Positions 8,567 to 58,507 of a stretch of DNA of 64,000 bases are shown here, piece by piece. The DNA lies in NCBI GenBank assembly GCA_958295945.1, contig OY282386.1, positions 806,001 to 870,000 on the forward strand. The letters run 5' to 3'. Under the pieces are notes generated by a model. The model made no database searches. It saw only the letters and a program-made list of their open reading frames with translations, and was not told where the DNA came from. The DNA comes from Candidatus Poribacteria bacterium (GTDB taxonomy: Bacteria > Poribacteria > WGA-4E > WGA-3G). Position 1 is the first letter of the stretch, and every line of letters starts with the position of its first letter. A program made the position numbers and the translations under genes.

Positions 8567-9286
8567 ATGAAAACTTTGTATATAACAACAATAATGTTGC
8601 TGTGTTGCTCGCTTGTCTCAGCTGAAGAGACATTCTTCTCTGAACTTGAAAGTCAGGCAGAAGTTGAGAAAGAGGGTGGCACTGTAGATGGTGGTAGTTT
8701 TGTTCCAGGTAAATTTGGTAACGGATTTGTAAGTGAAGAAGTTGGGGATGTCATCCACTTTCCTGTAGAAGACCGCTTTGTCAACCTTGAAGAAGGCACA
8801 GTTGAGTTATGGGTAACAATGGGAATGGATACCAGCACTATCACCGGTGAACTCTTTACGTTCATGACTTACAAACGCGACACTGACGCTATATTTTTAC
8901 AGTTCAACGATGGTGGTATTGCACAGATGCGGATTAAGAGTGCAAACTCTTGGATAAACGCCAATAGTGAACCACTTAAGTGGAAAAAGGGTGAACATCA
9001 CCACATGGCAGGGACATGGGGACCAGATGGACTGAAACTTTACCTTGATGGTGAATTGGCAGGAGAGGACCCATCAAATAAAGGTCCAACCGTATTTGCA
9101 GAAACATTTGAAATTAATAACGCATCACCACCGGATCCCAAATTCCCAACGAATTGTGTCGTTGATGGTCTTCGGATCTCAGATCACCAGAAGGAAGCTA
9201 ATGAATTAGTGCTTGATGACCCTGCGCCTGTGCATTCGAAAGGGAAACTGACTGTTACATGGGGTAGATTGAAAGCCGTAAATTAA
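8567..9286 (+). CDS. Secreted LamG-domain protein with C-terminal W-G tag
   Basis: A 239-aa protein. It has a signal peptide at residues 1-19 (hydrophobic core ITTIMLLCCSLVSA, cleavage near Ala19), then a LamG/concanavalin-like jelly-roll domain at about 35-215 (EGTVELWVTM, HHMAGTWGPDGLKLYLDGEL, VVDGLRISD). The last 15 residues read KGKLTVTWGRLKAVN after a Pro-rich linker. The same ending occurs in four other proteins here (29873, 55316, 57065, 57794), two folds of which are unrelated, so the tail is probably a separate functional tag. The ribosome-binding site AAGGAG precedes the ATG. A sialidase gene follows. Confidence 0.85.
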   Translation: MKTLYITTIMLLCCSLVSAEETFFSELESQAEVEKEGGTVDGGSFVPGKFGNGFVSEEVGDVIHFPVEDRFVNLEEGTVELWVTMGMDTSTITGELFTFMTYKRDTDAIFLQFNDGGIAQMRIKSANSWINANSEPLKWKKGEHHHMAGTWGPDGLKLYLDGELAGEDPSNKGPTVFAETFEINNASPPDPKFPTNCVVDGLRISDHQKEANELVLDDPAPVHSKGKLTVTWGRLKAVN

Positions 9287-9347
9287 ACAAATGTAAGGGT
9301 GGTACTACGGTTCTACCCATTTCATTCACTACAAATGAGGTTCATAG

Positions 9348-10412
9348 ATGTATAAAACAGAAAGTCCGCTTTTTACATCAGGGACAGAAGGATATAACAC
9401 TTTTCGTATTCCCGCGCTCGTCGCATCAAAAGAAGGAACACTATTAGCGTTCTGTGAGGGCAGACGAAAAGGTGGAGGCGATTCTGGTGACATTGATATT
9501 GTGTTGAAACGCAGTCTTGACAACGGTGAGACATGGCAACCATTGCAAGTTGCCGTATCCACTGGAGCAGATACGGACGGTAATCCAGCACCTGTTGTTG
9601 ACAGAGATACTGGAACTATTTGGCTACTGTTCTGTAAGAATTATGCTGATGGTGGTGAAGGGAAGATCATCGCTGGAGAAGCACCACGAACTGTTTGGGT
9701 TACCTCCAGTTCGGATGATGGAGAAACTTGGTCAGAACCGAGAGAGATCACTTCTGATACGAAATTGGATACGTGGACTTGGTATGCAACCGGACCTTGT
9801 CATGGTATTCAATTGGCAAATGGCAGAATGGTGATTCCGTGTGATCATGTTCTTGGTCAAAGTCGTAATTATGCTGAGATGGGGTATTCACATCTCATCG
9901 TTAGTAATGATCATGGTGAGACATGGCGTATGGCAGGGGATGCACAACCGGGAACAAACGAGTCAGTTGTGGTAGAAACGGTGGATGGCGACCTCTATTT
10001 CAATTGTCGAAACTATGTTGCACCAAAACGTCGTGCTTATGCTTGGAGTTCTGACGGTGGGGATACGTTCACTGAATTCGGCTATGACGATGACTTGATT
10101 GAACCTATATGTCAAGCGAGTATGGTTCGTTATACTGATGCCAATTCACACGACAAGAATCGTGTGTTGTTCTCTAATCCTGCAAGCACTGGACGGGAAA
10201 AAATGACAGTTCGTGTCAGTTACGATGAATGCCGCAGCTGGAACGAAGGCAAAGTTCTACACGAAGGTCCTGCTGCATACTCAGATCTCTGTATCGATTC
10301 AGAGATGAATATATGCTGTCTTTATGAACGTGGTGAGCGCGGTGCTTCTGAGACGTTGTCGTTTGCTAAGTTTGATTTAGCGTGGTTGACAGATGGAGAA
10401 GACTCGCTGTAA
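9348..10412 (+). CDS. Exo-alpha-sialidase-like glycosidase (BNR repeat)
   Basis: A 354-aa six-bladed propeller protein of the sialidase superfamily. The FRIP motif (YNTFRIPAL, about residues 16-24) supplies the first active-site Arg. An acidic GGDSGDIDI loop follows, and Asp-box repeats recur (SLDNGETW, SSDDGETW, SNDHGETW, SSDGGDTF). A late AYSDL may provide the catalytic Tyr. It has no signal peptide or C-terminal tag, so it would act inside the cell unless exported otherwise. The gene follows the secreted LamG gene and precedes oppositely oriented PhyH and oxidoreductase genes. Activity on true sialic acid is not proven by sequence. Confidence 0.8.
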   Translation: MYKTESPLFTSGTEGYNTFRIPALVASKEGTLLAFCEGRRKGGGDSGDIDIVLKRSLDNGETWQPLQVAVSTGADTDGNPAPVVDRDTGTIWLLFCKNYADGGEGKIIAGEAPRTVWVTSSSDDGETWSEPREITSDTKLDTWTWYATGPCHGIQLANGRMVIPCDHVLGQSRNYAEMGYSHLIVSNDHGETWRMAGDAQPGTNESVVVETVDGDLYFNCRNYVAPKRRAYAWSSDGGDTFTEFGYDDDLIEPICQASMVRYTDANSHDKNRVLFSNPASTGREKMTVRVSYDECRSWNEGKVLHEGPAAYSDLCIDSEMNICCLYERGERGASETLSFAKFDLAWLTDGEDSL

Positions 10413-10550
10413 GACATGTTTTAAATGCGACATTCTGGATAAAAAAGGAAATTTGAGGGATATTGGATCAGTTAGGAAACTACTCCTACCATGGTCGCTT
10501 GTATTTTACATTGAATTTACTTGAATATTTCTCGTATAGTAAATCAGTTA

Positions 10551-11393
10551 TTACACATATTCCTCACCACGGTGTTTTGCAATCCAAGTCTTCAATGGGA
10601 CATCCGCATCAGTGGGTTGCCACCAGCCTTTTATGTTCACACCGTCACCTAACAACTGCCTGCGAATCGGGTCGCATTTTTCAAGTAGTTCTGGTGGCAT
10701 AAGGTTGTAATCTAATCCGCGTAGCCAACGGTAACTATATCCCATAAACAGTACCTTACGGGTAACTTCGGAGAAATTCCATCCACGTGAATGCCACATT
10801 CTTCTATCAAATAGCACTGCAGTACCGCGTTTAACGATCAAATCAATTGCGCCGTCAGGGTCTTCATCAGGATTGTTCCTTGGAGGCAATTTGTCAAGCT
10901 TATGACTACCCGGTATAAGTCGCATTGCACCGTTATCACGATTCGTCACGTCACTTAACCAATAACTTACTTTCAGTGAAAGTCGTGGATGGGGACGTTC
11001 CATCTCAGGAATTGGTCTGCCACCGTCCTGATGCCAATGTGCTGCCTTGCTAACACGTGGTGTTTCGGCAGGTACCGGGGGATACATGATGAGGTGTGAA
11101 ATGTATAGTTGTATGTTCCATCCTAAAATGTCCCAGAGCAGTGGAAAGACCTTCTTGTTATCAAGCAATTCCAGAAGTAAGTCGTCTTCCATGACAGTGC
11201 GAAACTTTGATAGGAGTTTGTGTGCTGCCAATCCAGTTTTAGCGCGTTCTTCTGCATCAATCCGATCTGCTACTGCCTCTAATTGGTCTACCAACTCGGA
11301 AGTAATTGCGTTCTCAACGATGAGATAACCAGTCTCATTGAATGTGTTGAGTTGTTCGTCTGTTGCACAGTATTCAAGCCAACTTGTATCCAT
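10551..11393 (-). CDS. Phytanoyl-CoA dioxygenase family protein
   Basis: A 280-aa Fe(II)/2-oxoglutarate-dependent oxygenase of the PhyH family. Numbered from Met at 11393, the iron ligands are the H-x-D at His121/Asp123 (AAHWHQDGG) and the distal His201 (MWHSRGWN). Arg212 (VTRKVLF) probably holds 2-oxoglutarate. The chosen ATG lies four bases past the upstream gene's stop codon and has a GAGG/AAGGA region, making it preferable to a start 39 codons upstream inside the oxidoreductase gene. It forms an operon with the oxidoreductase at 11398-12609. Its substrate is unknown. Confidence 0.85.
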   Translation of the reverse strand: MDTSWLEYCATDEQLNTFNETGYLIVENAITSELVDQLEAVADRIDAEERAKTGLAAHKLLSKFRTVMEDDLLLELLDNKKVFPLLWDILGWNIQLYISHLIMYPPVPAETPRVSKAAHWHQDGGRPIPEMERPHPRLSLKVSYWLSDVTNRDNGAMRLIPGSHKLDKLPPRNNPDEDPDGAIDLIVKRGTAVLFDRRMWHSRGWNFSEVTRKVLFMGYSYRWLRGLDYNLMPPELLEKCDPIRRQLLGDGVNIKGWWQPTDADVPLKTWIAKHRGEEYV

Positions 11394-11397
11394 ATCC

Positions 11398-12609
11398 TTA
11401 TTCCTCAACACGTTCAATAATCTCACCAGTTTCCCGATTTCTGAAGATGCGTTTCTTTCTTCCATCAGGCAGCAGTTCATCTTTGAGATGTACCAATTTA
11501 TCATCAGCATCTATCTGAGCTGCTTGAATGTCTTCAATATCGGTTTCACCACGCCAGTCTTCAAGTTCAACTGACTCCCACTGTTTTGACTTTGCCGATT
11601 TATAGCAAGCATCAATGATTGCATTAACGACATATCCATCATAGAATGTTTCTAAAGGCTCTCTGTCTTCATCAATTGCATTGAACATATCCAGGAACAT
11701 ATCTCTATAACCGAGTTCTGCAACTTCATCACCGACAGGGAATAACCAACCGGTATCACCCTCTGCTTTTTCAGCAACATAACCCCCTTGACCTACTGCG
11801 GTGAACATCTCAAAACCGGTTCGTAGCCAGTGATTGAGCCAGATTGTTCCTTCACTACCAGATACTTCATCTCGCAAATCCATACCACCTCGGAAAGCCC
11901 AACTTACTTCAAACTGACCCATCGCACCACTTTCAAAGCGGATAAGTGCGATGCCATGATCCTCAGCATCAATAGGATGAACAAGTGTGTCAGCCCAACA
12001 CATCACTTCAAGCGGCTTATTATTCTTTCCAACGAAATTTCGGATAATCTCAATACAGTGGCATCCCATATCAACGATAGCACCACCACCTGCTTGTTCT
12101 AAATCCCAAAACCAATCGCTATGTGGACCGGGATGTGTTTCACGCGAACGTACCCACAGAATCTTTCCAAGTGCCCCATTCTGAACAGATTCTAATGCTT
12201 TCAACGTTTTTGGTGGATAGACCAAATCTTCAAGATACCCACCAAAAACTCCTGCGTTTTCCACCGCATCTAACATTGCTTTACCTTCAGCGGCTGTGCG
12301 ACCAAGGGGTTTCGTACAGAGAATGGCTTTTCCTGCTTTGGCAGCGAGTTCAACAGCATTCAGGTGTAAGTTGTTTGGTAAACCGATGACAACGACATCT
12401 GTCTCTGGATGATTTATGGCTTCTGCTAAATCGGTCGTTGCATTCGGAATATTCCATTCTTGTGCGAATTCGTTTGCGCGTTCTTCACGACGTGAATATA
12501 CAACATGCACACGGTCTCCACCGCGTTGGTTGTGGAGTGTCATCGTGTAGAACATGCCAATAAGCCCGCTACCGAGCATTGTAACTTTATGGTTATTCTG
12601 GTCTGACAT
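11398..12609 (-). CDS. Gfo/Idh/MocA family oxidoreductase
   Basis: A 403-aa NAD(P)-dependent sugar or inositol dehydrogenase-type protein. The N-terminal Rossmann fold starts with [13 protein letters not shown]; the KPLGRT motif near residue 100 is the family's EKP-type sequence with the catalytic Lys. The C-terminal alpha/beta domain includes [21 protein letters not shown]. It is the first gene of a two-gene operon with the PhyH dioxygenase, a pairing that suggests a small catabolic or modification step on an uncommon carbohydrate. Four members of this family occur in the window. Confidence 0.9.
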
Positions 12610-13640
12610 TTGTCTCCTTTATGTCAAGTAGATTAATTTTAATTAAAGAGGCCAATGAATTGTGCGACTACGAACAGGGGTGATTATGAGTTGACAGTTA
12701 TTCTCCTTTGTATGCTGAGATAACACCCCAGTCGTCCACTGTCCAGCAATGGTCTTTATCAGTTGCGGATAAGCCTTTGATAGTGCCACTCCCTCCAGCT
12801 TTTGTTGTTTTCCATGTTTTACCACCATCGTTGGTATGTAGAACTGAACCGAAATCTCCCGCTGCCCAACCGACTTTTTCATCAACAAACATAATATCAT
12901 GTAAATTATCAAAAGAATCTGTTTCCTGCTCATTCCATGTTTTGCCACCATCGTTGGTGTGCAGGATTAATCCTTCCTGTCCGCTAATCCAACCAGTTGT
13001 TTCATTGACAAAATGGATACCAAAAAGATTGTTATCCACCCCTGCGTCCTGTTTTTTCCAAGTTTCACCACTGTCGGTTGTATATAATAGTGTCCCATAA
13101 GAACCTATCACCCACCCTGTTGTAGGAGAAACAAACCAGATATTTTCAAGGTTGTTACGGGTTTCACCAACACGTGCACGTTCAGAACTACCTAACCACG
13201 TCTCTCCACCATCTGTTGTCTTGAGCACAGTGTTTTCTGAACCAGCGATGAAACCAACCGTATCGCTAATCATCTGTATTCCCATCAGGTTTGCCCGTAT
13301 TCCTCCACCACCACGTCGGTTAGGATTCGGTCTTGCATTCTCATTTCTTGCGACTTTTTTGTTCCAAGTTTTTCCACCATCTTCTGTTTTTAGGATAGTT
13401 CCTCTTGCTCCAGTGATGTAACCAATGTTTTCATTGACAAAATAGATATTATATAGAGTCGGTGTGCCACCACGAAATCCTGCTGGTGGACCACCGCCAG
13501 CCCCTCCAGGACGCTCCGGTCTTTGTCCGGGAGTAACTCCTTGTTGTCTGGGGTTGGCTTCTTTTTTTATCCAAGTTTTCCCAGCATCGTTTGTAGTAAG
13601 CATTAACCCGTTATCACCTACCACTAGTAGACTGTCCACA

Positions 13641-14312
13641 CTAAAATTGTGGGTATAAGCGTTTCAATCGGATGCGAGCATCATCCGTTGTCCATTGCCA
13701 GTCTACTTGCTTCGCTTCACCATTTCGTCTTTTTTCCCAAGCTTGTGTCTCTCGTCGTAGTGTTTCTATATCAGGGATGCGACGACCTAAACATTGTCGT
13801 GTTAGCACGCTAAGTTCTATCTCAGCAATATTCAACCAACTTCCATGTTTGGGCGTATACACGATTTCTAAACGAGCACATAAACGGCGTGCTTCCGCTG
13901 CTGGAAACGCTTTATACAAGGATGAAACTTTATGTGTATTCAGATTATCACAAACTAAAATCACTCGTTTTGCTTTCGGATACACCTCGTCTAATAGCAC
14001 CTTTACCTCTTGTGCCCAATCCACCGCAGTCCGACGCTCACGCACAGACACGCCTCTCCACCCCGTTAGTGCTTCTGTGAATATGAAAAGTTGTGCTGTG
14101 CCATTGCGTCTATATTCATTATCTACACGCTTGATTTGACCCGGTTTGAGGGGGCACGGCTCGCGAATATCATCCCTCAACGTTACAGGTTGTTCATCCA
14201 TATTCACAACCGGCACATCTGTGTCTAAAGGTTTCTGATAGAGATCAAGCACTTCTTCCATTGCTGCGACAAACTCAGCATTTTCGGTGGGTGGGATTAC
14301 CCATTGTTCCAC
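13641..14312 (-). CDS. IS630 transposase, catalytic part (orfB)
   Basis: The DDE domain of the transposase: first Asp in VVNMDEQPV, second Asp in VILVCDNLNTHK, Glu in WLNIAEIELSV. It lacks its own good start. The frame opens upstream of the first Met, directly after the A8 run at 14332-14339 where the upstream orfA ends. It is presumably translated by a -1 shift on A-AAA-AAA, giving one fused transposase with orfA. About 223 aa after its first Met. Confidence 0.85.
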   Translation of the reverse strand: MEQWVIPPTENAEFVAAMEEVLDLYQKPLDTDVPVVNMDEQPVTLRDDIREPCPLKPGQIKRVDNEYRRNGTAQLFIFTEALTGWRGVSVRERRTAVDWAQEVKVLLDEVYPKAKRVILVCDNLNTHKVSSLYKAFPAAEARRLCARLEIVYTPKHGSWLNIAEIELSVLTRQCLGRRIPDIETLRRETQAWEKRRNGEAKQVDWQWTTDDARIRLKRLYPQF

Positions 14313-14323
14313 CAGGTGTGGCT

Positions 14324-14827
14324 TTAGTTCGTTTTTTTTAGCGTCTGGCGCACTGTTTCAGAACAAATACTCTCAACGATTTCAAGCTTCACGAATTCCG
14401 AAGCAAGAAGACGAAGGGACCACCTGCTATAGCCTTCAGGCGGTTCGCTACAACTCAACGCAATCAGACGCGCTTCTGCTTCACCATCCAACTTTCGAGG
14501 ACACGGAGGTGTTTTGCGGTGCACTCGATCCAACGCTCCCGATAAACCCTTTTCTACAAAACGATGCCGCACATTGTAAACCGTCTGCTCATGACACGAG
14601 TAAGCTTCAGCTATCTGCTTATCAGTCCAGCGAGGACCATTTACATCGGATTTCAATAAGATGTGTGCATGCCTGATCTTATACGCTTTATTTTCTCCTT
14701 TACTTATATACTTGTTTAGTTCTTCACGCTCAATATCAGTTAATTCAACTATATATTTCTTTTTCAAGAGACTATTCCTTAAAGAAGTATTTAGGGACAT
14801 TCTAAAAGAAATACGTCTGTTTGGCAA
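14324..14827 (-). CDS. IS630 transposase, DNA-binding part (orfA)
   Basis: About 158-167 aa. It carries a helix-turn-helix (WTDKQIAEAYSCHEQTVYNVRHR) and a winged-helix-like segment (GYSRWSLRLLASEFV), ending LKKTN at the A8 run. The start may be the Met at 14827 or the one at 14800; neither has a clear ribosome-binding site. It is the N-terminal half of the frameshifted transposase. Confidence 0.8.
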   Translation of the reverse strand: MPNRRISFRMSLNTSLRNSLLKKKYIVELTDIEREELNKYISKGENKAYKIRHAHILLKSDVNGPRWTDKQIAEAYSCHEQTVYNVRHRFVEKGLSGALDRVHRKTPPCPRKLDGEAEARLIALSCSEPPEGYSRWSLRLLASEFVKLEIVESICSETVRQTLKKTN

Positions 14828-15163
14828 GTTTTATTGAAGAATATACCTATAATTTTAGTGTAGACACTCCACTAGACCGTTCTTTTGATCAAAAAAATGC
14901 ACATCATGTAACATTCCTTGAATGTCATCCCCACGAATTATATCATCTTCTCGTAGTACAGTCCATTTTCCTTCAACAACTGTCTGTGAAAAAAGGACCG
15001 TGATACCGATAAATATGATGGCTAATGTGTTATTTCTATTGGTCATAATTTCCTCCTTTTCAGTAAGCATTATTTGTACACGCTTTGAAATTTCAGACTT
15101 CATTATGCGATAATAGATTGACGGTGATGTAAATAATGTAAGAGGCGAAATGAATTGCGCTCC

Positions 15164-15880
15164 TTATGTGAAAAATTCCTCGTTGTGTGGACGGACATCT
15201 ACCTCAAAGCTCCATGCACTTCTGTCCTGTTGAATGAGTGCCCAATAAGTGTCTGCGATAGCATCTGGTTCAAGTAAAGGATCACCTTCCTCTACTTGAT
15301 ACCGTTCACGTAGATTGGGTGAGTTAATAACACCATCAATGATGATGTGTGCAACATGAATGCCTTGTGGACCGACTTCTCGAGCAAGTGAAGAAGCCAA
15401 TCCGCGCATAGCGTATTTTGCACTGCTAAATGCAATTGCCCCTGCTCTCCCACGGACAGCAGATGTTGCACCAGAAAAAAGTATTGTCCCACTTTTCTTT
15501 TCAAGCATATCAGGAACAACCTGTTTAACACATAGAAATGCACCGAGGGTACAAACACGCCAAGCATTTTCAAATGCATCTGGTGTAAGTTCTGACAGGT
15601 TTCCCCACGCTGCATTTCCAGCATGATTTACCAAGATATCTGGTGCTCCAAATTCATTTCGGATTTGCTCAAAACTTGCTGCAACTTGTGTAGCATCTGT
15701 TATATCTGTGGGGATTGGAAGGACAGAAATGCCCTCTTCTTCCAATCTGTTTGATAGATTGATAATGTAGGGTGATGAACGTGATAGTAGTACAAGGTGG
15801 CATCCTTCGTTAGCAAATTTACGGGCAATAGCTGCACCTAAACCTGGTCCTACGCCAGCAATCACTGCAGTTTGTGACAT
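15164..15880 (-). CDS. Short-chain dehydrogenase/reductase family protein
   Basis: A 238-aa Rossmann-fold protein with the coenzyme motif GVGPGLG (residues 9-15) and LVNHAGNAAWG. The catalytic Ser region is FSGATSAV. Where classical members have Tyr-x3-Lys, this one reads F-S-S-A-K, so the catalytic Tyr is Phe. This is shared, as far as I recall, by a subgroup of uncharacterised SDR proteins, so it may be a divergent enzyme rather than a dead one. A strong GAGGAGGG ribosome-binding site precedes the ATG. It stands between the interrupted propeller gene and the macB fragment. Confidence 0.85.
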   Translation of the reverse strand: MSQTAVIAGVGPGLGAAIARKFANEGCHLVLLSRSSPYIINLSNRLEEEGISVLPIPTDITDATQVAASFEQIRNEFGAPDILVNHAGNAAWGNLSELTPDAFENAWRVCTLGAFLCVKQVVPDMLEKKSGTILFSGATSAVRGRAGAIAFSSAKYAMRGLASSLAREVGPQGIHVAHIIIDGVINSPNLRERYQVEEGDPLLEPDAIADTYWALIQQDRSAWSFEVDVRPHNEEFFT

Positions 15881-15945
15881 GTCAATCCCTCCTCAATAGG
15901 ATTTAATAAATGTTTAATTGCCATAGTTCTAATTCTATTAATATG

Positions 15946-16313
15946 TTACTCATGTCGCAAGGCATCAATCGGATGAAGTTTGGCTGCTTTCCAAGCAGGA
16001 TACGCACCAAAGAATATACCGACAAGTGCACTTACTATGAAAGAAAGCACTCCGTAAACGGGTGAGATAACTGTCCGCCAACCCCAAAGCGATGGTACCA
16101 TTTCAGCACCGACTATACCAAAACCGACACCGACAATTCCACCAAGCAATGCTAATGTTGTCGATTCAACAAGGAATTGGGTAAGGATATCTAAACGTTG
16201 TGCCCCAACAGCTTTGCGAAGACCAATCTCTTTAGTCCGTTCTGTAACCGAGACCAGCATGATATTCATAATCCCAATACCACCCACAAGTAAAGATACA
16301 ACAGCAATACCTA
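15946..16313 (-). pseudogene. MacB/FtsX-type ABC transporter permease, C-terminal fragment
   Basis: Only the last 122 or so residues of a MacB-like permease remain: [38 protein letters not shown], the last transmembrane segments, and the typical ending [13 protein letters not shown]. The upstream boundary is the left end of an IS5/IS427-type element at 16314. Beyond that element lies not the rest of macB but the end of an aldo/keto reductase gene. The N-terminal part (transmembrane helix 1 and the periplasmic domain) has therefore been deleted. Confidence 0.85.
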
Positions 16314-16321
16314 GGTAGTGT

Positions 16322-29872: not shown

Positions 29873-30231
29873 TTACAAAATAGACCGAGTCTTCATTCTT
29901 CCCCATGTCGTTGTTAATTTATCTTTCGGTGTTATTGATAACACACCATTTATTAATAAATTCATCAGATCCTGAATTTCTTTCTGGGTACGGGCAATGT
30001 TTGATATGCGAACTTCGTCGATGTACCCATCAAGGAATGGGCCCGCGCCGCGGCCAAGCCATAGGACAACATTATTTGTAATGATCTTTCCACCAATGTC
30101 ACCTTCATTGTCAATCTCGCCATCAAAATAGAGTTTTCCTTCACCAGAAGCAGCATCATAAGTGCCAGCAATATGCACCCACTTCTTGAGAGGCAATTCT
30201 GTACTTCCAATCACTACAGCACTCCCCAAAT
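29873..30231 (-). pseudogene. LamG-domain protein, C-terminal fragment with W-G tag
   Basis: The last part of a LamG jelly-roll protein: WVHIAGTYDAASGEGKLYFDGEI, GGKIITNNVVLWLGRG, DGYIDEVRISNIARTQKEIQDLMN, and the tail KDKLTTTWGRMKTRSIL. The open frame runs upstream into a palindromic repeat (30232-30350) whose translation is unrelated, so the signal peptide and first half of the domain have been lost. The repeat sits exactly at the break. It is the only truncated member of the five tagged proteins. Confidence 0.8.
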
Positions 30232-30350
30232 CCATTGTAGTGCGGGGTCTACGGGCCACACCATCTTTCAATCTACCAAGAACTGTGGGGCACAGAGACC
30301 CACACTACAATGGATGCTAAGAAGTTAGTGTCTAAAACTTTACACACCCA
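30232..30350. repeat. Composite GAGACCC repeat, copy at the LamG fragment
   Basis: Left arm CCATTGTAGTGCGGGGTC, right arm GGGCACAGAGACCCACAC followed by TACAATGGATGCTAAGAAG and TTAGTGTC, ending in AAAACTTTACACACCC. The right half matches the elements at 46853-46992 (inverted) and 56862-57001. It borders the truncated LamG gene and precedes the tat promoter. Confidence 0.8.
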
Positions 30351-46289: not shown

Positions 46290-46290
46290 A

Positions 46291-47059: not shown

Positions 47060-47092
47060 GCATTATCTGGGTAAGCATGGTATAATTTATAA

Positions 47093-47878: not shown

Positions 47879-47924
47879 GATTTTGTAGATGATATAATAT
47901 AACTCTTGATTGTATAGTTTTCTT

Positions 47925-49346: not shown

Positions 49347-49361
49347 TAATATCATCCAGAA

Positions 49362-50213: not shown

Positions 50214-50977
50214 ATTCTCTCTTTCAATTTTGCAGACAGATGTTTTCTAATTCTATACATTTTGCTGTAACAGAATTCCGAGACATATACTCGGCACTTA
50301 GGGTCCTATATCATTCTCGAATTGCTTTTGTTATAACTGCAACATTATTATTTATTTCTATATACCTTATTTTTGGATATGCACAGGTTGAAAAAACAAT
50401 GTTAGAGGCACAGAAAATTTTCTACCTCCACGTTTCAGCTGCGATGACTGTTTATCTGGCATTCGGTGTAAACTTTATATTTAGCATCAAATATCTAATT
50501 AAACGCAAACCTGACGATGATCTATTGGCAGTATCAGCAGCAGAAATAGGTCTTGTTTTTTGTACTATTGTCCTGCTTTCCGGACCGATTTGGGCAAAAT
50601 ATGCATGGGAAACTTGGTGGACTTGGGAAGCACGTCTCACAAGCACGCTTGTACTCTGGTTAATGTACGTCGGTTATTTTATACTCCGTTCTGCATTAAC
50701 TGAAGACAAACGAAAGATCTATTCCGCAGTACTTGGCATTATTGCTTTTTTTGATGTACCGATTGTCCATTTTGCAACAAAGTTTTGGGAAACCAAATTG
50801 CATCCAGAACGGGGTTCAAAATTTGACTTGCTGCCAACAATGTTACATACTTGGATGACAGTGTTAGCGGCATTCGTCATATTATTCTTGGTATTATTGA
50901 TCCTACAATATCAGACAATAAAGACTGAGTCGCGCTACGAAGTCCTTAGACAAAAACACCTACAGGAGCTCAACTGA
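50198..50977 (+). CDS. ccmC: Heme exporter/cytochrome c biogenesis protein CcmC
   Basis: A 259-aa protein with six hydrophobic segments and the tryptophan-rich heme-handling motif WAKYAWETWWTWEARLTSTLVLW. Conserved His residues occur before it (FYLHVSAAMTVYLAFG) and after it (DVPIVHFATKFWETKLHP), as in the CcmC/CcsA family. It passes heme to the cytochrome c maturation system. It is coupled to the next gene by TGATG overlap; ccmE and ccmF are not in this window. Confidence 0.9.
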   Translation: MGRSLNSLFQFCRQMFSNSIHFAVTEFRDIYSALRVLYHSRIAFVITATLLFISIYLIFGYAQVEKTMLEAQKIFYLHVSAAMTVYLAFGVNFIFSIKYLIKRKPDDDLLAVSAAEIGLVFCTIVLLSGPIWAKYAWETWWTWEARLTSTLVLWLMYVGYFILRSALTEDKRKIYSAVLGIIAFFDVPIVHFATKFWETKLHPERGSKFDLLPTMLHTWMTVLAAFVILFLVLLILQYQTIKTESRYEVLRQKHLQELN

Positions 50978-51321
50978 TGCGAATTGTTATTGTCCTCAGC
51001 TGTTTAATTGTAATCGGTTTAGTGTTCTCAGCTATTCAAGTTCCAACTATAGATTTTGCCAAGGTTGAAGAGGCAATTAATGATGTAAAATCTAAATCAC
51101 AAGTGAACATTGCGGATGAAGATACACTAAAGAAAACTGTTAATCTAATAGTTAAGGAATTGGAGGCAGACCAACGTACTCGACTAAAATATCTTGTCTC
51201 TGCCTATCTCGTTATTTGGTTGGTATTCATGCTCTACTTGGTGCGAATGGGAAAACAGCAGCAGTCATTAGACAAACGTCTCTCGCAACTTGAACAAGAC
51301 ACTGAAGAACCCGTAGAATAA
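50977..51321 (+). CDS. CcmD-like membrane protein with N-terminal extension
   Basis: A 114-aa protein. The C-terminal third (YLVSAYLVIWLVFMLYLVRMGKQQQSLDKRL) matches CcmD, the small helper of the CcmC heme complex, with its one helix and basic/coiled-coil tail. Ahead of it are another hydrophobic segment (IVIVLSCLIVIGLVFSAIQV) and about 50 polar residues, so the protein is twice the normal length with two membrane spans. Overlap with ccmC supports the assignment. Confidence 0.7.
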   Translation: MRIVIVLSCLIVIGLVFSAIQVPTIDFAKVEEAINDVKSKSQVNIADEDTLKKTVNLIVKELEADQRTRLKYLVSAYLVIWLVFMLYLVRMGKQQQSLDKRLSQLEQDTEEPVE

Positions 51322-51353
51322 TTTTATTATATTTCATTGTGTCTAATCCTCCC

Positions 51354-51725
51354 TTACAAACCGACAAGCCAATTTGACAGAGATGCGACTTGATCTGGGT
51401 CTGTTAAGTTAGCTGCGTTTCCAAGTAATCCCTCTTCAAGATGTGTCCAGATTCCCTGTGCCATGCTGTCAACAATAACGGATCCAATAAAAAAGAGGCA
51501 TGGTGACAAGTCTTTTGCTGCAAAAGCATTTCGGATACGAGTTAAGGCAGTTTGAGCTGTTTTCCAGTGTTCATCCGCTCCAGCGGGATCAATTCCACCT
51601 TTCAATTCAACAAAAGGTGTAGTTTGCCGATTTTTCTCCAAGGCAAGGCTAACAAATCCAGATCTAATCTCTTCATGTGGAGTAATGAGATCGGCACTTT
51701 CAGATAAATGTTGAATATACGACAT
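51354..51725 (-). pseudogene. Type II restriction endonuclease remnant
   Basis: A 123-aa frame starting at Met 51725, whose ATG overlaps the stop of the methyltransferase gene (TAATG). The start ([23 protein letters not shown]) and the end ([26 protein letters not shown], then [15 protein letters not shown]) look like the two ends of a type II restriction enzyme of the kind found beside cytosine-N4 methyltransferases. The usual 150-200 residues between them appear missing without a frameshift. Family assignment is from memory of such motifs and is tentative. If right, the enzyme is inactive. Confidence 0.5.
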
Positions 51726-53155
51726 TATCTCTTTTTCCATACATACACGCATTTACGAAGAGGAATGCGACCATAAGTTCCCATTTGTTGACTACTATTT
51801 CCCTTTTTTCCTGGTACAATAAGTATTTTTTCCACCTTGAAGCCCAGCATTTTGGCTATGTCAGATAAAATCAAATCTACAGAAATACCGATACCTGCAT
51901 ATCGGACATTATCGTTCACCATGAAAAGACGCGCATTCGGTTTTAACAGTCGGTAACATTCACTAATTACACACGCCATTTCTGAAAAATATCCACGAAC
52001 CATTCTCGGTATACTGTTGTTGTTTAATGTTCCGCACGACTTTTCGTATTCAAGATAGGCATTGATTGAATTTAGCAATTGTTGATTCTTCACGGTATCT
52101 AAAACGGCATCCCATTCTGGTCCAATCTTTGACAAATCCTTTTCTCTATTTTCTACCGTGCAGCTAAGCATTTCCTGTCTTAAACTACAAACTTCCTCAT
52201 GTGTCAAACCCAACATCGTCAATTCAAGGGCATAGGTACGTGTATAATCATATCGGTTGTAGTAAGGAGGTGATGTCATGATGGCAGTATATGTTTCTGT
52301 CTCTAAGCTCGGTAGAATATCTAAACAAGAGCCTGGGAACAATTGAATATTACATTTAGAACGAAGGACAGGAAATAGAGTTGTAGGTGTTTGATGAGAA
52401 GTTACATAGAACAAAATCTCTCTTAGTTTTGTAGTTATAGCAGAAGCGAAGGTCTGAATTTTCCCTTTATCAAACGGTTTTGTACCGGGACGTATCTTGC
52501 CGGAACGCGCATCCCAACGTAGATATTGCCCATCTTTACGTGTATAACTGATCGATTCCAAGATACATAATAAAGCAAGACGAAGAATTAACTGTATTTT
52601 TTCGTTTTCATGCTGCATTGCCCCTCTGTACCTTTCTATTGCCTCTACTGTATCTGATGGATATGCCCCCTCTGTAATCCGAATTGTACTAAATGGCACT
52701 TTTTCCGGAAATCCGTTCCACGGTTGAGAGTTTATCCACAATTCAAGCGTAGCAATGTCATTAGGTGACAATCCCTTTTCCAACAATATTCGTGCTTGTA
52801 TGATTTCTTGTCCAATAGGTAATAATTCTATTCCATCAGCGTGTATATTTTGTTCACTTGCTGCAAAGAAGGTCGTGCCTATTCCAGCAAAGGGATCAAG
52901 GACCTTTCCTTGAGTCCCACCTTCATAATTGCTCAAGAAGTATTCAACAAGTCCTGCAGAAAACGCTTCCTTGTATTTATACCAACTATATGCGGGTCTT
53001 GCTTTGTTTCCTTGAAAACTCACGATCTTTCGAGACAAGTATGGAGCAATAGACATTTGTGATTTGAATCTTTCAGTGAGTTTAGAGTCAAGTTTAGTAA
53101 TCACTGTCCGCATTTCTTCGGATTGTGTATATACTTTGTCTTTTTGAAGAGTCAT
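51725..53155 (-). CDS. DNA methyltransferase (amino-MTase, beta-type order)
   Basis: A 476-aa site-specific amino-methyltransferase. The S-adenosylmethionine motif is [12 protein letters not shown] (86-97) and the catalytic motif IV is [11 protein letters not shown] (294-304). TSPPY is the form usual for cytosine-N4 enzymes, though adenine cannot be excluded. A large helical region separates the motifs. A later HxxN-like end contains [16 protein letters not shown]. The companion restriction gene overlaps the stop but looks truncated, so the methyltransferase may now be a solitary modifying enzyme. Confidence 0.85.
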
Positions 53156-53169
53156 AAGGACCTCTAATG

Positions 53170-53928
53170 TTAGTTATCTGGAATCTCATCCCAATTATAC
53201 TCAGGTGAATATCCCAAATCTTTTTCTGCTTGCTTCCAATCATAACGCGAGTCTTCTCGTCCAGCAACAGCGTTATATGCACCATATTTAATTGTTTCGT
53301 TTTCAATAGCACGTTCTATACATTGAGCAACATCCCTCGGATCCACATAAACAAACCATCGACCAGACGCAACTTCAGGGGCAGAGGGACCAGGATTAAG
53401 TCCATCACCATCTATTACACCTGGACGGATATGTATAATTTTCAACCCGTGTGCTTGATGGTAGGCTAAACATATTTCCTCTCCAAGATGTTTTGAGAGT
53501 GAATAATATATGTCACCCCCACCAAACTGAAACGCATCTCCGACTTGATATGGTAATTCGACACCTGCTGAAGGCGGACATGCTGAGATACTTGAGATAT
53601 TCACCAGTTTTTGCACACCCTGGCGAACACAAGCCTCCGCTACATTCCAAGTGCCTTTGACCATCACCTCAGCATATAATGAGAGTGGTTTACCATGTCG
53701 TTCACGCACCAAAGCAACCAGATGGATTACTGCATCGTGTTCAGCACAAGCAGCTTCAATTTCTGACAAATCTGTTACATCTGCTTTGATGAACGTAACA
53801 CCATCAGCCACTTGATCTGGTTCAACTATATCAGTTAATGTTAGTTCGTAATTTGGGTGCAGCCGCTCAATGATAAATTGTGCCAGGTATCCAGCTGCAC
53901 CGGTGATCAATATCTTTTCTATTGCCAT
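53170..53928 (-). CDS. NAD-dependent epimerase/dehydratase family protein
   Basis: A 252-aa extended SDR with the motif ILITGAAGYLAQFI, VIHLVALVRERHGKPLSLY, a Ser in NISSISACPP and the catalytic pair Tyr-x3-Lys in YYSLSKHLGEE. Probable substrates are nucleotide or free sugars. It shares the minus strand with the methyltransferase and lies just downstream of the frameshifted ArsC-like remnant and the oxidoreductase at 54284. Confidence 0.9.
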   Translation of the reverse strand: MAIEKILITGAAGYLAQFIIERLHPNYELTLTDIVEPDQVADGVTFIKADVTDLSEIEAACAEHDAVIHLVALVRERHGKPLSLYAEVMVKGTWNVAEACVRQGVQKLVNISSISACPPSAGVELPYQVGDAFQFGGGDIYYSLSKHLGEEICLAYHQAHGLKIIHIRPGVIDGDGLNPGPSAPEVASGRWFVYVDPRDVAQCIERAIENETIKYGAYNAVAGREDSRYDWKQAEKDLGYSPEYNWDEIPDN

Positions 53929-53939
53929 CAGTTGAAATG

Positions 53940-54277
53940 CTATCCTTTTACAAAAGGAGGATCGGTATAGAGGGTATCATTGTAACCGACATAGAATACA
54001 TTACCAGTCCTAATAGTCGGTGCACGCAAACTACCACTACGTCCAAGTACTGCTTTGAGCACGGAGTCACGATCAACTTCGTTAGGTTGGAAGGTTGCCA
54101 CACTTTTCCCTTTTGCCACAACGATACTTTCAGCAGATTCCAACAAATCCCATACTGCATCTGCTTCTAACTTCTCTTTTCGTGCATCTGCCCGTTCTTT
54201 AACTGCTAAGTCGTTCGTGTCAAGAAACTCTTGAACTTTCTTACACGAGTTTCAGCTGTTCCTAAAATAAATCCAAT
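53940..54277 (-). pseudogene. ArsC/Spx-like thioredoxin-fold gene, frameshifted
   Basis: On the minus strand the sequence first reads IGFILGTAETR (about 54277-54245) without a clear start codon. It then continues in another frame as CKKVQEFLDTNDLAVKERAD through VWDLLESAESIVVAKG to LRAPTIRTGNVFYVGYND, ending at 53940. Together this matches the ArsC/Spx-like fold: an N-terminal strand, active-site Cys, and a cis-Pro in R-A-P-T. One base is gained or lost near 54245 and the start is degraded. Real decay or a sequence error are both possible. Confidence 0.55.
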
Positions 54278-54283
54278 CTATCA

Positions 54284-55282
54284 CTATCCTTCCTCCACTT
54301 TGACAAATTTTCCTGTATTACGGCTATTTATCGCCGCGTCAATTAATTCCAGTGTTTTAAGGGCGTCATTGAAATCTGAACGGATCAACCTTTTGTCCCC
54401 TGTTTCAATGGCCCGGAGCCATGCACCGGTCTTGTCTAAACCTAAGTTGTTAGTTGAAGCTGCAGGTTCATCTATTGTCTCACCATTTAGATAACCGCGT
54501 ATTACATTGTCGGACATTTTGCCTTGTAAGTGTATATGAGGTCCGATCACCTCAACATCAAAACAGAAACCTTCGGTACCGCAATGATTCATGTGTGTGC
54601 CAAAAACTCCGTTATCCAATTCGTAAGTCATTTGGATGGCATTTTCAGCGTCAAATTCCGTTCTATCTAATGCCATATTTTTCGTTGCCAAGGCGTGTGC
54701 TTGTATCGGCTTCGGGTTTCCCAATACATAACGCGCACAATCCAACACATGCACTGCTTGTTCCGCTAAAGGTCCACCGCTTATTTCAGATTGCAAAAAC
54801 CAGAAAGGCATTTGAAAATTGAGATAGTAGTTAATCGTGCAGACTGTTCTGACAAGATGGACAGTTTCCGATGCGATCAATTCCTTCATCCGCTCATAAA
54901 GAGGATGATAACGGAGTTGAAATCCAACGGCTGCCATCACACCCGATGATTCAATGTGTTCAAGACATTTTCGTCCATCAGACATATTTAGGGCAGGTGG
55001 TTTTTCAACCAGAATTGGGACACCACGTTCACATGCCAGTTGGATAGGTTCTAAACGAACAGGGGGTGGTGTTGTAATCACCACCCCGTCTAATTCTACG
55101 TCAAAAAAAGCATGTAATATATCGGTAAAATGTTCAGCATCTGCATGCGTTGCCAATGCTATTGAGGCATCAGATAGGACATCGTGAACTGCAACAACAC
55201 GAGCACCGTAATTCGTTACTGCATCACAGTGGTGTCTACCCATTCTGCCAGCACCGATAATGCCAATTGATAATTGATTCAC
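54284..55282 (-). CDS. Gfo/Idh/MocA family oxidoreductase
   Basis: A 332-aa protein with IGIIGAGRMGRHHCDAV, the catalytic-type motif VPILVEKPPALNMSDG, and a C-terminal domain with SGGPLAEQAVHVLDCARYVLG. It probably oxidises or isomerises a sugar derivative. It lies upstream of the ArsC-like remnant and downstream of a secreted jelly-roll protein, all on the minus strand, fitting a carbohydrate-processing locus. Confidence 0.9.
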   Translation of the reverse strand: MNQLSIGIIGAGRMGRHHCDAVTNYGARVVAVHDVLSDASIALATHADAEHFTDILHAFFDVELDGVVITTPPPVRLEPIQLACERGVPILVEKPPALNMSDGRKCLEHIESSGVMAAVGFQLRYHPLYERMKELIASETVHLVRTVCTINYYLNFQMPFWFLQSEISGGPLAEQAVHVLDCARYVLGNPKPIQAHALATKNMALDRTEFDAENAIQMTYELDNGVFGTHMNHCGTEGFCFDVEVIGPHIHLQGKMSDNVIRGYLNGETIDEPAASTNNLGLDKTGAWLRAIETGDKRLIRSDFNDALKTLELIDAAINSRNTGKFVKVEEG

Positions 55283-55315
55283 TCTGTTATATTACTCACT
55301 GAAGTTGTTGTGGAA

Positions 55316-56026
55316 TTACTTACGTTTTAAGTTGCCCCAGGTAACTGCAATTTTACCTTTAGGTTCAACTGGTGTGGCTTCTCCGCCTGGTGTTACGACA
55401 AATATATTATCATATTGAGCATGTTCAGCACCACTCATACGGAAACCAATTTTTCCCATTGAGAAAGCCTTCTGTGAATCTGTCCATTCACTCACGAAAG
55501 ATAACTCGGCACCAATTCCACCAACAGGTCCTATATAAGCCTTAAAATTGGATCCTGACCGCACCTCAAATTTTGCACGATACCAGACACCTTGTTCACG
55601 GTCAATACCATCTTCAAATGCACCTGGTTCAGCTGCCCATCCACCGTTTACTCTTCTGTGCCAGCGGATGTGTTGTGGAGTATGTCCAGATGCTGCTGTA
55701 GAAACTTGGTGCATATAGATATTGTTCTCATCTTGTGCATGGAAAATAAATCCTGTCAAACCATTTTGGACTGCTTTAAAATCAGCATAGTAGTCATATT
55801 CTTCTGGAAACTCGTCAACACTGAGTCCAACATCACCACCGGGAACAAATAGAACATTGTTTCCCAATGCATCATGACCATCTGCATTATCTTCAAGCAC
55901 CCAAGTGTTTTTGGGAACCCATTTTGTATCGTCAATGTTTTCACTCTCAAAATCATCATGAAACAGTATTTCTGCTGAAACAGTAGCAGCACATAATATC
56001 AGTAATAAACAGACAAAATATCGCAT
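55316..56026 (-). CDS. Secreted jelly-roll (DUF1080-like) protein with W-G tag, paralogue 1
   Basis: A 236-aa protein with a signal peptide (FVCLLLILCAATVSA, cut before Glu19). A single concanavalin-like domain follows (ILFHDDFES, YDYYADFKAVQNGLTGFIFH, NNIYMHQVS, HIRWHRRVNGGW, WYRAKFEVR, GKIGFRMSGAEHAQYDNI). The last residues are VEPKGKIAVTWGNLKRK. It is clearly more than half identical to the gene at 57065-57775, most strongly in the aromatic-rich strands, and differs most in the linker. Such domains bind or cut polysaccharides; no catalytic residues could be assigned. Confidence 0.8.
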   Translation of the reverse strand: MRYFVCLLLILCAATVSAEILFHDDFESENIDDTKWVPKNTWVLEDNADGHDALGNNVLFVPGGDVGLSVDEFPEEYDYYADFKAVQNGLTGFIFHAQDENNIYMHQVSTAASGHTPQHIRWHRRVNGGWAAEPGAFEDGIDREQGVWYRAKFEVRSGSNFKAYIGPVGGIGAELSFVSEWTDSQKAFSMGKIGFRMSGAEHAQYDNIFVVTPGGEATPVEPKGKIAVTWGNLKRK

Positions 56027-56175
56027 TTAAATCATCTCCTTGTGTTATAAGAAATCAGATGAATGATGTTCATCCTGACTTTCATTTATAATATGTATCT
56101 AAACTTTAAAGTAATTCCAATCAACTATTTCTCAATTATACCATATTTCTGTATTTCTGGTTACAATTAATGGTA

Positions 56176-56204
56176 TACAAAGGGTGTGTAAAGTTTTTGT
56201 CACC
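56176..56204. repeat. Terminal block of the composite repeat (inverted)
   Basis: GGGTGTGTAAAGTTTTTGTC is the inverse of the GACAAAAACTTTACACACCC block that ends the composite elements. It stands alone here, without the GAGACCC arms. Confidence 0.5.
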
Positions 56205-56235
56205 GTAGTCGTCAATTTAGCGTCCTTCCAGTGCC

Positions 56236-56265
56236 GTTAGGTTCGGTTAGGAAACCGCACCTAAC
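56236..56265. repeat. GTTAGGT hairpin
   Basis: A 30-base imperfect hairpin with arms GTTAGGTTCGGTT and AACCGCACCTAAC and a 4-nt loop. The adjoining 56280-56740 is AT-rich with scattered AAACTGTAAGA-like direct repeats and no supported gene. Confidence 0.6.
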
Positions 56266-56742
56266 CAGGACTATGAGAGAAGTAATTTTTGTGTAGTATC
56301 TGACGGCAAATTCATTGTATTAATCTTGCAATTTCATGGTCTGTCTCCTTCTTGAAAAGTTACGAAACTGTAAGAAATCTCGGACAAACTGTAAGACGGG
56401 CAAATTGTCTATGCACGTAGTCACTGTATGGGTTTATAGGCAATAATTTGATGGCACTAAAATTTGAATTTTGTAAACTGTAAGATTTTTCTGAGATGCT
56501 GAGATTTGTCCGTTATTTTTGTCTATAAATGTGTGATGAATTGCATGAATATCGTCTTTTATCTTCATAATAGTTTCCATTATTTTGCTCTTATATAAAT
56601 TTCTTAAAATTGTTATATTGCATATAACAATCATGTTAAAATAAATAATAAATATATATTAACACATAAATGGGCTTATGTCAAGTTATTTTTTGGCAAT
56701 GGACATATTTTTCATTGTTCAACACACATTTCTTAGACCTGT

Positions 56743-56790
56743 AAGGACGATATGGTTATAAGGACTGGTTAGTACAGACATATCATCCCT
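56743..56790. repeat. GGACGATATG imperfect inverted repeat
   Basis: AAGGACGATATGG (56743-56755) pairs with ACATATCATCCCT (56778-56790) with a few mismatches and a 22-nt loop. Confidence 0.4.
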
Positions 56791-56861
56791 AATGGAGATT
56801 AGGAAATAAATATGGTAATTTGAGATCAAAGTCCAGAGCACTTACAAAGTGCCAAATCAAG

Positions 56862-57001
56862 AAATCAACGGTATGAATGCCTTTTGGCGTTCCCCGGGTC
56901 TCTGTGCCCCGCCATTCCTTGTCTTGTAATGCAACGGGCGGGCACAGAGACCCGCCCCTACAATTCATGGTGAGAAGTTAGTGACAAAATCTTTAAACAC
57001 C
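56862..57001 (+). repeat. Composite GAGACCC repeat, full copy (forward)
   Basis: Blocks in order: ATCAACGGTATGAATG, GGGTCTCTGTGCCCCGCC (56896-56913), a spacer, GGGCGGGCACAGAGACCCGC, TACAATTCATGGTGAGAAG, TTAGTGACAAAATCTTTAAA. The order and spacing match the inverted copy at 46853-46992. It lies 65 bp beyond the 3' end of the jelly-roll gene at 57065. Confidence 0.85.
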
Positions 57002-57064
57002 TGTATACAAATTGGTTAAAAAATAGAACAAACCATGAATAAATATTACATTTATTGTATTGGC

Positions 57065-57775
57065 TTATTTCTTCTTTATACTTCCCCATGTCACAGCGAG
57101 TTTTGCTTTGGGTTCAACAAGGAAGATGTCAAATCCTGCGGCAGCAACAACAATATTGTCATATTGAGCCTGCTCTGCACCGGACTTACGAAATCCAATC
57201 TTTCCTTTCTCAAAAGATTTTGCACTATCAGTCCATTCACTTACAAGTGTAAGATCTTCATCTTCTGAACCGACATCACCTATAAATGCCTTAAATTTAT
57301 AGTTCTTACGCACCTCAAACTTGATGCGATACCATACATTTTGTTGGCGTTTTACACCATCTTCAAATGCACCCGGTTCTGCGGTCCATGCGCCGTTAAT
57401 TCTTCTGTGCCATCTGATGTGTTGTGGTGTATGTGCAGAACCATCAGTTGAAACTTGATGCATGTATATGTTATTACCGTCTTGCCCGTGGAACACAAAT
57501 CCAGTCAAACCGTTCGTTGTGGCTTTAAAATCCGCGTAATAATCATATTCTTCTGGAAAATCATCCACACTAAGACCAACATCACCACCTTGGATATCAA
57601 TGACTTTATTACCCAGTACATCATGATCATCCTCATTATCCACTATTTTCCAACTGGCTTGTGGTGACCATTTCTTGTCATCAATCTTTCCACTTTCAAA
57701 GTCATCTTGAAACAGTATTTCAGCTGACACTGTGCTTACACATAATATCAGCAACAAACAAATTGCATAACGCAT
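57065..57775 (-). CDS. Secreted jelly-roll (DUF1080-like) protein with W-G tag, paralogue 2
   Basis: A 236-aa paralogue of the protein at 55316-56026: signal peptide AICLLLILCVSTVSA, then ILFQDDFES, YDYYADFKATTNGLTGFVFH, NNIYMHQVS, HIRWHRRINGAW, GKIGFRKSGAEQAQYDNI, and the tail VEPKAKLAVTWGSIKKK. Its start lies 18 bp after the stop of the discoidin-like gene, so the two are probably co-transcribed. The duplicated pair is separated by about 1 kb of repeats. Confidence 0.8.
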   Translation of the reverse strand: MRYAICLLLILCVSTVSAEILFQDDFESGKIDDKKWSPQASWKIVDNEDDHDVLGNKVIDIQGGDVGLSVDDFPEEYDYYADFKATTNGLTGFVFHGQDGNNIYMHQVSTDGSAHTPQHIRWHRRINGAWTAEPGAFEDGVKRQQNVWYRIKFEVRKNYKFKAFIGDVGSEDEDLTLVSEWTDSAKSFEKGKIGFRKSGAEQAQYDNIVVAAAGFDIFLVEPKAKLAVTWGSIKKK

Positions 57776-57793
57776 AATTAATCTCCTATTTTA

Positions 57794-58507
57794 TTAGTAT
57801 TTATCAGTTTTAACTTGTCCCCAGACTGTTGTTAGTTTTTCGGTTGGCTCAACAGCAGTCGGATCACTACCACCATAGATTTCTATTTCATCAATACGCG
57901 CACCACCATTTGTACGAATGTGGATACGTAACCACCGTGCCTCTACATCATCAAAAGTGATCTCTGTGGTTTTGCTAACTGGCGCACCTTTATGTGTATA
58001 GACAATATTCCAAGTATTTGCTTCAGAGTCGGCATCAGCTACCTTTGTTGCGACGAGGATATCAAAATCGGCAGCTGTTCGGTCAATAAAACCTTGCGAA
58101 TGGTCGCTTCCAAAAATTATGCGATTTACATTCGCAACTTCACCAATATCAATCTGTGCCCAACCGGGTATAGCACCAATAATCCAACTTCTGCAATTGT
58201 TATAGAAACCGTCGTTGAGATATTCGGTACAGTGCCGTTGAGGACACCACCCGTCCAATAAAGAAGAGGCTTCAGGTTTAGCATCCTTCAGTAATGCTAA
58301 ATTTGGTTCTTTATCTCGAACGGTTGGGACAAATTCTGGTCCCGGTTTTCCACCTGCTTCACATGCCTTCGTTGCTGCATCAATATCTTGCTCTTTAAAT
58401 TCATATCGTCCGAATTTCTCTGGTCCCTTCTCTTCATTATGTTCAGCGAAAACCGAAGGAGTATTTATTATTAATGTCACGAGTAAACAGAAAAGTCCTA
58501 TTCTCAT
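57794..58507 (-). CDS. Secreted F5/8 type C (discoidin-like) protein with W-G tag
   Basis: A 237-aa protein. The signal peptide is LFCLLVTLIINTPSVFA. The N-terminal 70 residues are charged. The discoidin-like domain includes NLALLKDAKPEASSLL, CTEYLNDGFYNNCRSWIIG, PGWAQIDIGEVANVNRIIFGSD, WNIVYTHKG and ARWLRIHIRTNGGARIDEIEIYG, the usual F5/8 type C pattern for binding carbohydrate or lipid. The end is AVEPTEKLTTVWGQVKTDKY. It has the same tag as the jelly-roll proteins despite a different fold. Confidence 0.85.
   Translation of the reverse strand: MRIGLFCLLVTLIINTPSVFAEHNEEKGPEKFGRYEFKEQDIDAATKACEAGGKPGPEFVPTVRDKEPNLALLKDAKPEASSLLDGWCPQRHCTEYLNDGFYNNCRSWIIGAIPGWAQIDIGEVANVNRIIFGSDHSQGFIDRTAADFDILVATKVADADSEANTWNIVYTHKGAPVSKTTEITFDDVEARWLRIHIRTNGGARIDEIEIYGGSDPTAVEPTEKLTTVWGQVKTDKY

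Follow-up and report, generated by a model that had tools for sequence, protein, structure and literature searches.

Why do five proteins encoded close together in one genome end in nearly the same short peptide? The question is raised by a 64,000 bp stretch of Candidatus Poribacteria DNA (contig OY282386.1, positions 806001–870000), here called the window; the source genome, G000, is a single contig of 5.34 Mb. The peptide is a C-terminal tail of about 16 residues with the rough form VEP..KLTTTWGxLK, referred to below as the WG tail. An earlier note, made from the letters of the window, had read it as a novel sorting, anchoring or processing signal. As a general reading this is supported: the tail is position-specific, sits on unrelated exported proteins, and is nearly absent from cytosolic ones. 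We consider it probable that, across the phylum, the WG tail serves Sec-exported proteins as a linear address tag at the C-terminus, and that its task is most likely docking or anchoring.

The WG Tail and Its Carriers

The tail consensus is K-[LIV]-[TA]-x-x-W-[GA]-x-[LIVM]-K, set behind a Val-Glu/Asp-Pro/Ala linker and usually 1–5 residues before the stop. All five tails of the earlier note are found where it had placed them, in frame and 2–5 residues before the stop. Four carriers have a Sec-like signal peptide, and the fifth is a LamG remnant without its N-terminus, as had also been claimed. The carriers and their tail cores are as follows (E, expectation value; ORF, open reading frame).

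8567..9286, plus strand: exported LamG protein of 239 residues (ORF translation) with signal peptide MKTLYITTIMLLCCSLVSA; PF13385 match, E 4.9e-12
9245..9274, plus strand: its tail core, KLTVTWGRLK, in frame, then AVN and the stop (3 residues before stop)
29873..30271, minus strand: LamG gene remnant, N-terminal part and signal peptide lost, tail kept; PF13385 match to profile positions 67–151 only, E 1.2e-18
29891..29920, minus strand: its tail core, KLTTTWGRMK, in frame, then TRSIL and the stop (5 residues before stop)
55316..56026, minus strand: exported jelly-roll protein 1, 236 residues, signal peptide, without Pfam match
55325..55354, minus strand: its tail core, KIAVTWGNLK, in frame, then RK and the stop (2 residues before stop)
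57065..57775, minus strand: exported jelly-roll protein 2, 236 residues, signal peptide, without Pfam match
57074..57103, minus strand: its tail core, KLAVTWGSIK, in frame, then KK and the stop (2 residues before stop)
57794..58507, minus strand: exported discoidin-like (F5/8 type C) protein, 237 residues, signal peptide; PF00754 match, E 2.7e-06
57809..57838, minus strand: its tail core, KLTTVWGQVK, in frame, then TDKY and the stop (4 residues before stop)

The bodies of the two jelly-roll proteins are 69% identical, and the discoidin-like protein scores 28.0 bits with PF00754, for which the cut-off is 28.2. Many in-frame stops lie upstream of the LamG remnant. Two tailed genes of the source genome, this one (29873–30271) and locus L030, are without their N-terminal part and signal peptide while the tail is intact; both are probably pseudogenes. 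Tailed genes are often found close together as pairs of similar sequence (L017/L018, L026/L027, L041, L042, L050, L061, L085).

The window is not exceptional in its genome. A strict DNA pattern has 31 matches in G000 and none in the reversed control. Thirty of the 31 loci were translated, and in each the motif is in frame with a stop 1–10 residues on. A loose pattern matches 48 times, or 89 times with one mismatch allowed. Extrapolation suggests roughly 130 tailed proteins, since 400 kb of spaced stretches outside the window hold 10 C-terminal matches. The same placement holds among named relatives. In 80 named stretches (L041–L120, out of at least 113), a stop follows 1–8 residues on at 93 of 93 strict places, with a peak at 3; this set includes L078, a 24-residue chance frame (Clostridia). 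Leaving out L078 gives 92 places, several of them in short or contig-edge frames, and here residues outside the search pattern are also conserved: Val at −5 in 85 of 92, and Pro or Ala at −3 in 81 of 92. Locus L352, a 41-residue frame, was set aside.

The conservation is of protein. In the 31 strict 30-mers, 10 codons are used at the second position (six for Leu, the others for Ile, Met or Phe), Thr at position 5 uses all four of its codons, and so does Gly. That synonymous codons differ freely, as had been observed in the window, is thus borne out genome-wide, and because of this variation a copied DNA element is ruled out. Four pairs of divergent homologues, with bodies 51–73% identical, keep the tail core.

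The Tail and Protein Export

If the tail is an address tag of exported proteins, it should be found on such proteins and at their ends. Both statements were examined with 20 stretches of G000 (20 kb each, evenly spaced, none from the window), which comprise 346 ORFs and 114,141 residues. Of 58 ORFs with a signal peptide only, 10 have a C-terminal tail; the other 288 ORFs have none (Fisher p about 9e-9). In these stretches too, then, ORFs outside the signal-peptide class lack the tail, as the earlier note had said of non-secreted proteins in the window.

A pooled set from four Poribacteria genomes, with 1,075 ORFs that a simple script had called, includes the window, which was itself chosen for its tails, and was searched with a slightly stricter regular expression for G000 than for the other genomes. 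Tails are present in this set on 33 of 183 ORFs with a signal peptide only, none of 27 lipoproteins (p 0.010), none of 87 ORFs with a signal peptide plus a transmembrane segment (p 1e-6), 2 of 71 transmembrane ORFs and 3 of 707 ORFs classed as "other" (5 of 778 for the last two together). The enrichment among signal-peptide proteins that the earlier note had wanted tested is therefore strong (33/183 versus 3/707, p 7e-21). One of the three tailed "others" is the window's own LamG remnant. The tallies retain four tails that had been scored as transmembrane or "cyto", three in G009 and one in G008; among these, L259 has an inner start that is signal-like, and L275 resembles a chance match. Tail frequency in G008 and G002 is biased upward, because their stretches come partly from contigs known to hold matches. 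By a home-made rule, 28 of the 30 translated strict loci of G000 have a signal-like N-terminus (L007 at 1.94).

Internal matches are few. The earlier note had allowed that the motif might prove equally common inside proteins or on cytoplasmic ones, which is not borne out. The 114,141 residues of G000 outside the window hold two internal matches, one in an unrelated sequence and one directly before a type IX sorting domain; G009 has three, G008 one and G002 none. Of these six, two precede a type IX domain and the others look unrelated.

Distribution

The tail is phylum-wide in Poribacteria. The loose pattern matches 83 of 84 genomes, with 3 to 85 matches each, and all reversed controls are zero. 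The exception is G009, where a K[AML]A[AS]xW[GA]xLK-like variant, close to K-[AML]-A-x-x-W-[GA]-x-L-K, is found mostly on exported proteins. G009 was considered as a tail-less natural deletion, and the presence of the variant rules this out. The loose pattern matches just one of 299 genomes of a control phylum, and there the match is a 24-residue chance frame. A strict-pattern scan of named genomes found at least 113 stretches, of which 111 have titles of Poribacteria, one of "Pseudomonadota" and one of "Clostridia". The placement of G000 in this phylum also agrees with its proteins: of 330 that were sampled, 50 have full-length matches in 111 partial Poribacteria records, with a median identity of 57% and a maximum of 96%.

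In the phylum of the "Pseudomonadota" record, the tail is found in 2 of 58 genomes, G084, a fragmentary assembly, and G110, which is mostly one 2.84-Mb contig. ORF reading gives three tailed proteins in each, all with signal-like N-termini. The case for these genomes rests on that reading: the loosest pattern gives 5 matches in 2 of the 58 genomes, yet 4 reversed-control matches in 4 others, and G084 has 1 control match at one mismatch. Five of the six proteins are without a Pfam match, and the sixth has ankyrin repeats and a weak zincin-like match. Two homologous pairs are shared between G084 and G110, with bodies 51–57% identical and the tail core kept; L323:912 and L322:16521 are 54% identical. 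Tailed proteins of this phylum lie at L304:14575-15717, L322:16521-18689, L323:912-1940, L324:768-1850 and L048:1965-3059, and a pair of neighboring tailed genes is present in both genomes.

Folds of the Carriers

A domain scan of 32 tailed G000 proteins found 21 with Laminin_G_3, three with a 3-keto-disaccharide hydrolase domain, two with F5/8 type C, and one each with CBM9, DUF4960 and a TolB-type propeller. Two tailed lamin-tail-domain proteins are found among named relatives. The list of attached domains that the earlier note had called for thus includes LamG, discoidin, TolB-type propeller, CBM9, lamin-tail and ankyrin-repeat carriers.

In the window itself, the claim of three different folds stands in part. 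Two LamG proteins (PF13385) and one discoidin-like protein are there as described. The count of three is overstated, because the jelly-roll pair appears ConA-like: the model of the jelly-roll protein at 57065, a low-confidence one, draws Foldseek matches to ConA-like, galectin and DUF1080 structures. On this weak fold match, four of the five window domains would belong to one broad fold class.

With so many sandwich folds among the carriers, one may ask whether the tail is simply the last strand, or the closing part, of one shared domain, as the earlier note had allowed. The 21 Laminin_G_3 matches among 32 proteins and the strand-like alternation of polar and hydrophobic residues in the tail are in line with that idea. 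The structure predictions are not. In the AlphaFold model of the LamG protein at 8567, the chain is mostly confident to about residue 220, and the tail, residues 223–239, has a predicted local distance difference test score (pLDDT) below 50. The model of the jelly-roll protein at 57065 is poorer (mean pLDDT 64), with residues 1–38 and the tail, 221–236, below 50 and the tail at about 40; at the tail it draws a low-confidence helix. Thus, in the two proteins modeled, the second weakly, the tail is predicted to be disordered and to lie outside the folded domain, which in the LamG protein is complete. The tail is also found on propeller, discoidin, CBM9, lamin-tail and ankyrin-repeat proteins. 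On these predictions the last-strand explanation is largely refuted, and we find it hardly credible.

Relation to Type IX Secretion

Candidate type IX secretion genes are widespread in Poribacteria. TIGR04183 Por_Secre_tail domains occur in 84 of 84 genomes, C25 peptidases in 83, and divergent SprA matches in 83, over the cut-off in 1. The SprA candidate of G000 (L353:2676-9098, that is, G000:C1:1010676-1017098) matches in five stretches at 148 bits, the cut-off being 200, and has no sequence match in the PDB. The C25 peptidase of G000 (L192:2233-7458) matches the PorU model NF033707 with E 6e-112 and 375 bits, the cut-off being 420. According to a 2014 paper, poribacterial genomes had yielded no structural Por genes (PMC3909097). 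The divergent SprA and PorU candidates are at odds with this statement and reopen the question.

The WG element meets this system in some proteins. In the FG-GAP/ASPIC protein of G000 (L191:1431-3287), VEPHGKKSITWGRLK leads directly into YPNPFNPETW, the start of a Por_Secre_tail domain. A gapped pattern finds the element directly before a Por-type domain at 56 places in 51 of the 84 genomes; the gap was free to vary by 30 bases, yet 55 of the 56 agree in length, and the last is shorter by one codon. By eye, most of the 56 resemble the FG-GAP protein, and WD40-like and other proteins also occur, the domain scan covering the G000 protein. This qualifies the earlier description of the tail as having no hydrophobic stretch, LPXTG motif or Por-type domain. 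The first two points hold, whereas the element does precede Por-type domains in some proteins.

Such adjacency invites the proposal that the tail is a short type IX cargo signal, a minimal alternative to the large C-terminal domain, that SprA/PorV would read for passage across the outer membrane. The near-fixed spacing at the 56 places, together with a phylum that has divergent SprA, C25 peptidases and TIGR04183 domains, is what such a signal would lead one to expect. However, the 32 scanned tail proteins end without a Por domain: an NCBIfam scan at E <= 0.01 found no TIGR04183 match among them, and one weak GCX_COOH match (E 0.0049). Where a protein has both, the large domain already supplies the signal. 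Furthermore, few Por domains bear the element, with 1 such place in G000 against 47 TIGR04183 matches. Finally, the tail-bearing genomes G084 and G110 gave no SprA match; the SprA search of their phylum returned, in 1 of 58 genomes, a 40-position match in a 41-residue frame. Two tailed genomes without a SprA match, one of them (G084) a fragmentary assembly, suggest that the tail can occur where there is no type IX translocon. We therefore think a cargo signal unlikely. As far as sequences tell, the link between the tail and type IX secretion is real but partial.

The same adjacency could be read in the opposite direction, with the tail a functionless linker remnant left after loss of type IX domains. 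The element does stand before some Por domains, and the stand-alone form stops just before where such a domain would begin. Stand-alone tails are, however, far the commoner form, with 48 loose matches in G000 against 1 linked place, and the core is still recognizable in divergent homologues, in another phylum and in phages. A remnant of this kind is very improbable.

Phage Contigs with the Tail

Two IMG/VR contigs, L345 and L347, have genes for a T4-like DNA polymerase, UvsX and a DnaB-like helicase; L345 also has a processivity factor, a clamp loader and a translation repressor. With polymerases of Synechococcus phages, the L345 polymerase reaches no more than 51% identity. Near the phage replication genes, each contig encodes a tailed LamG protein (L345:12770-13696 and L347:5498-6421) that has an N-terminal hydrophobic signal or anchor and ends in KLTTTWGEVKK. 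On a third contig, L346, only the end of such a gene is present. The LamG protein of L345 has no match in 50,697 phage records. Adjoining its gene is one for a NifU/iron-sulphur assembly protein (L345:12159-12758).

From the tail alone, we infer a poribacterial host for these phages. That phage genes bear a tail of host type argues for some role of the tail in the host.

A Docking Proposal

The carriers share a simple layout: a signal peptide, a folded domain that is often of a glycan-binding type, a linker and the tail. We suggest that, after Sec export, the exposed tail would be captured by a receptor in the envelope or at the cell surface, so that the protein becomes docked or anchored. The tail would then do for soluble lectin-like proteins what the lipid anchor does for lipoproteins. 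In the minority of proteins with both the element and a Por domain, a PorU-like peptidase would cut off the type IX domain, and the element would then lie close to the new C-terminus. That is, the tag may act after translocation, whatever the export route. We prefer docking to translocation because no tail was found on lipoproteins, because the element is positioned before Por domains, and because the tail occurs without a SprA match. The first of these, 0 of 27 lipoproteins at p 0.010, is evidence of modest weight.

A related possibility is that the tail is a proteolytic or covalent processing signal of a sortase- or rhombosortase-like kind, cut near W-G and joined to a carrier. The strict near-C-terminal position, the invariant Trp with its Gly or Ala and flanking Lys, the analogy with known C-terminal sorting tags, and the presence of PorU-like sortases in the phylum would all suit such a reaction. 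There is, however, no membrane segment to hold a substrate, the stop comes only 1–10 residues after the motif, and no dedicated enzyme was found in a search for C25 alone. We take processing to be distinctly unlikely. The choice among a sorting, an anchoring and a processing role is our interpretation.

Several points weigh against the docking proposal. Signal peptides were called by a home-made rule rather than by a trained predictor. Two of the 30 strict loci, L009 and L030, have no signal-like N-terminus; both are N-terminally truncated. The signal-like segment seen in 75 of 75 full-length named tailed proteins is a biased count, because the start was chosen to maximize hydrophobicity. By the same home-made rule, two of the six tailed ORFs of the second phylum class as signal peptide plus transmembrane segment, so this class is not strictly excluded. 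As 150 of the 183 signal-peptide ORFs have no tail, it follows that the tail is no general export requirement. The preference for docking over translocation or processing is indirect, being based on small lipoprotein numbers, the Por position and an apparent independence of SprA. Lastly, no receptor, peptidase or transporter partner was identified among neighbors viewed in two genomes only, G084 and G110; these neighborhoods hold homologous tail genes and other shared genes and no receptor candidate.

Taken together, the parts would make up an anchoring system: an exported docking peptide of about 16 residues and an envelope receptor, present throughout Poribacteria, acting on dozens of lectin-like proteins without need of the type IX translocon, found in a few genomes of another phylum, and used by T4-like phages to put a LamG protein of their own on the cell that they infect. 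The system in this full form is a tentative proposal, which we would put a little on the doubtful side.

Comparison with Known C-Terminal Signals

The type IX sorting domain is Ig-like. Like it, the WG tail is C-terminal, on signal-peptide proteins and in tens of copies per genome; the two coexist in genomes and, in some cases, within one protein. In contrast, the TIGR04183 model has 72 positions, whereas the tail has about 16 residues, is predicted to be disordered, and occurs in two genomes without a SprA match.

LPXTG, PEP-CTERM, GlyGly-CTERM and MYXO-CTERM are likewise short C-terminal tags common to unrelated exported proteins. Unlike these, the WG tail has no transmembrane helix or stop-transfer cluster, and the corresponding models found no match in the 32 tail proteins.

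For encapsulin cargo tags and dockerins, a short C-terminal peptide caught by a protein receptor is the mechanism that is here proposed for the WG tail. Encapsulin cargo is cytosolic, unlike WG-tail proteins with their signal peptides, and dockerins are folded modules that bind calcium.

The β-signal of outer-membrane barrels is also C-terminal, with an aromatic residue and a strand-like alternation. However, no WG carrier with a recognized domain is a barrel, and the Trp is found about 4–14 residues from the end. Literature searches found no description of such a tag.

Implications

Poribacteria are described, in the abstract of the 2014 paper, as among the dominant members of marine sponge communities (PMC3909097). 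A tag readable from sequence would list the proteins that these bacteria place in their envelope, and the tail may be of use in assigning T4-like phage contigs to poribacterial hosts. The receptor would be a concrete target, and docking through it would be a localization mechanism that uses neither a lipid, a membrane helix, LPXTG-type sorting nor a type IX domain.

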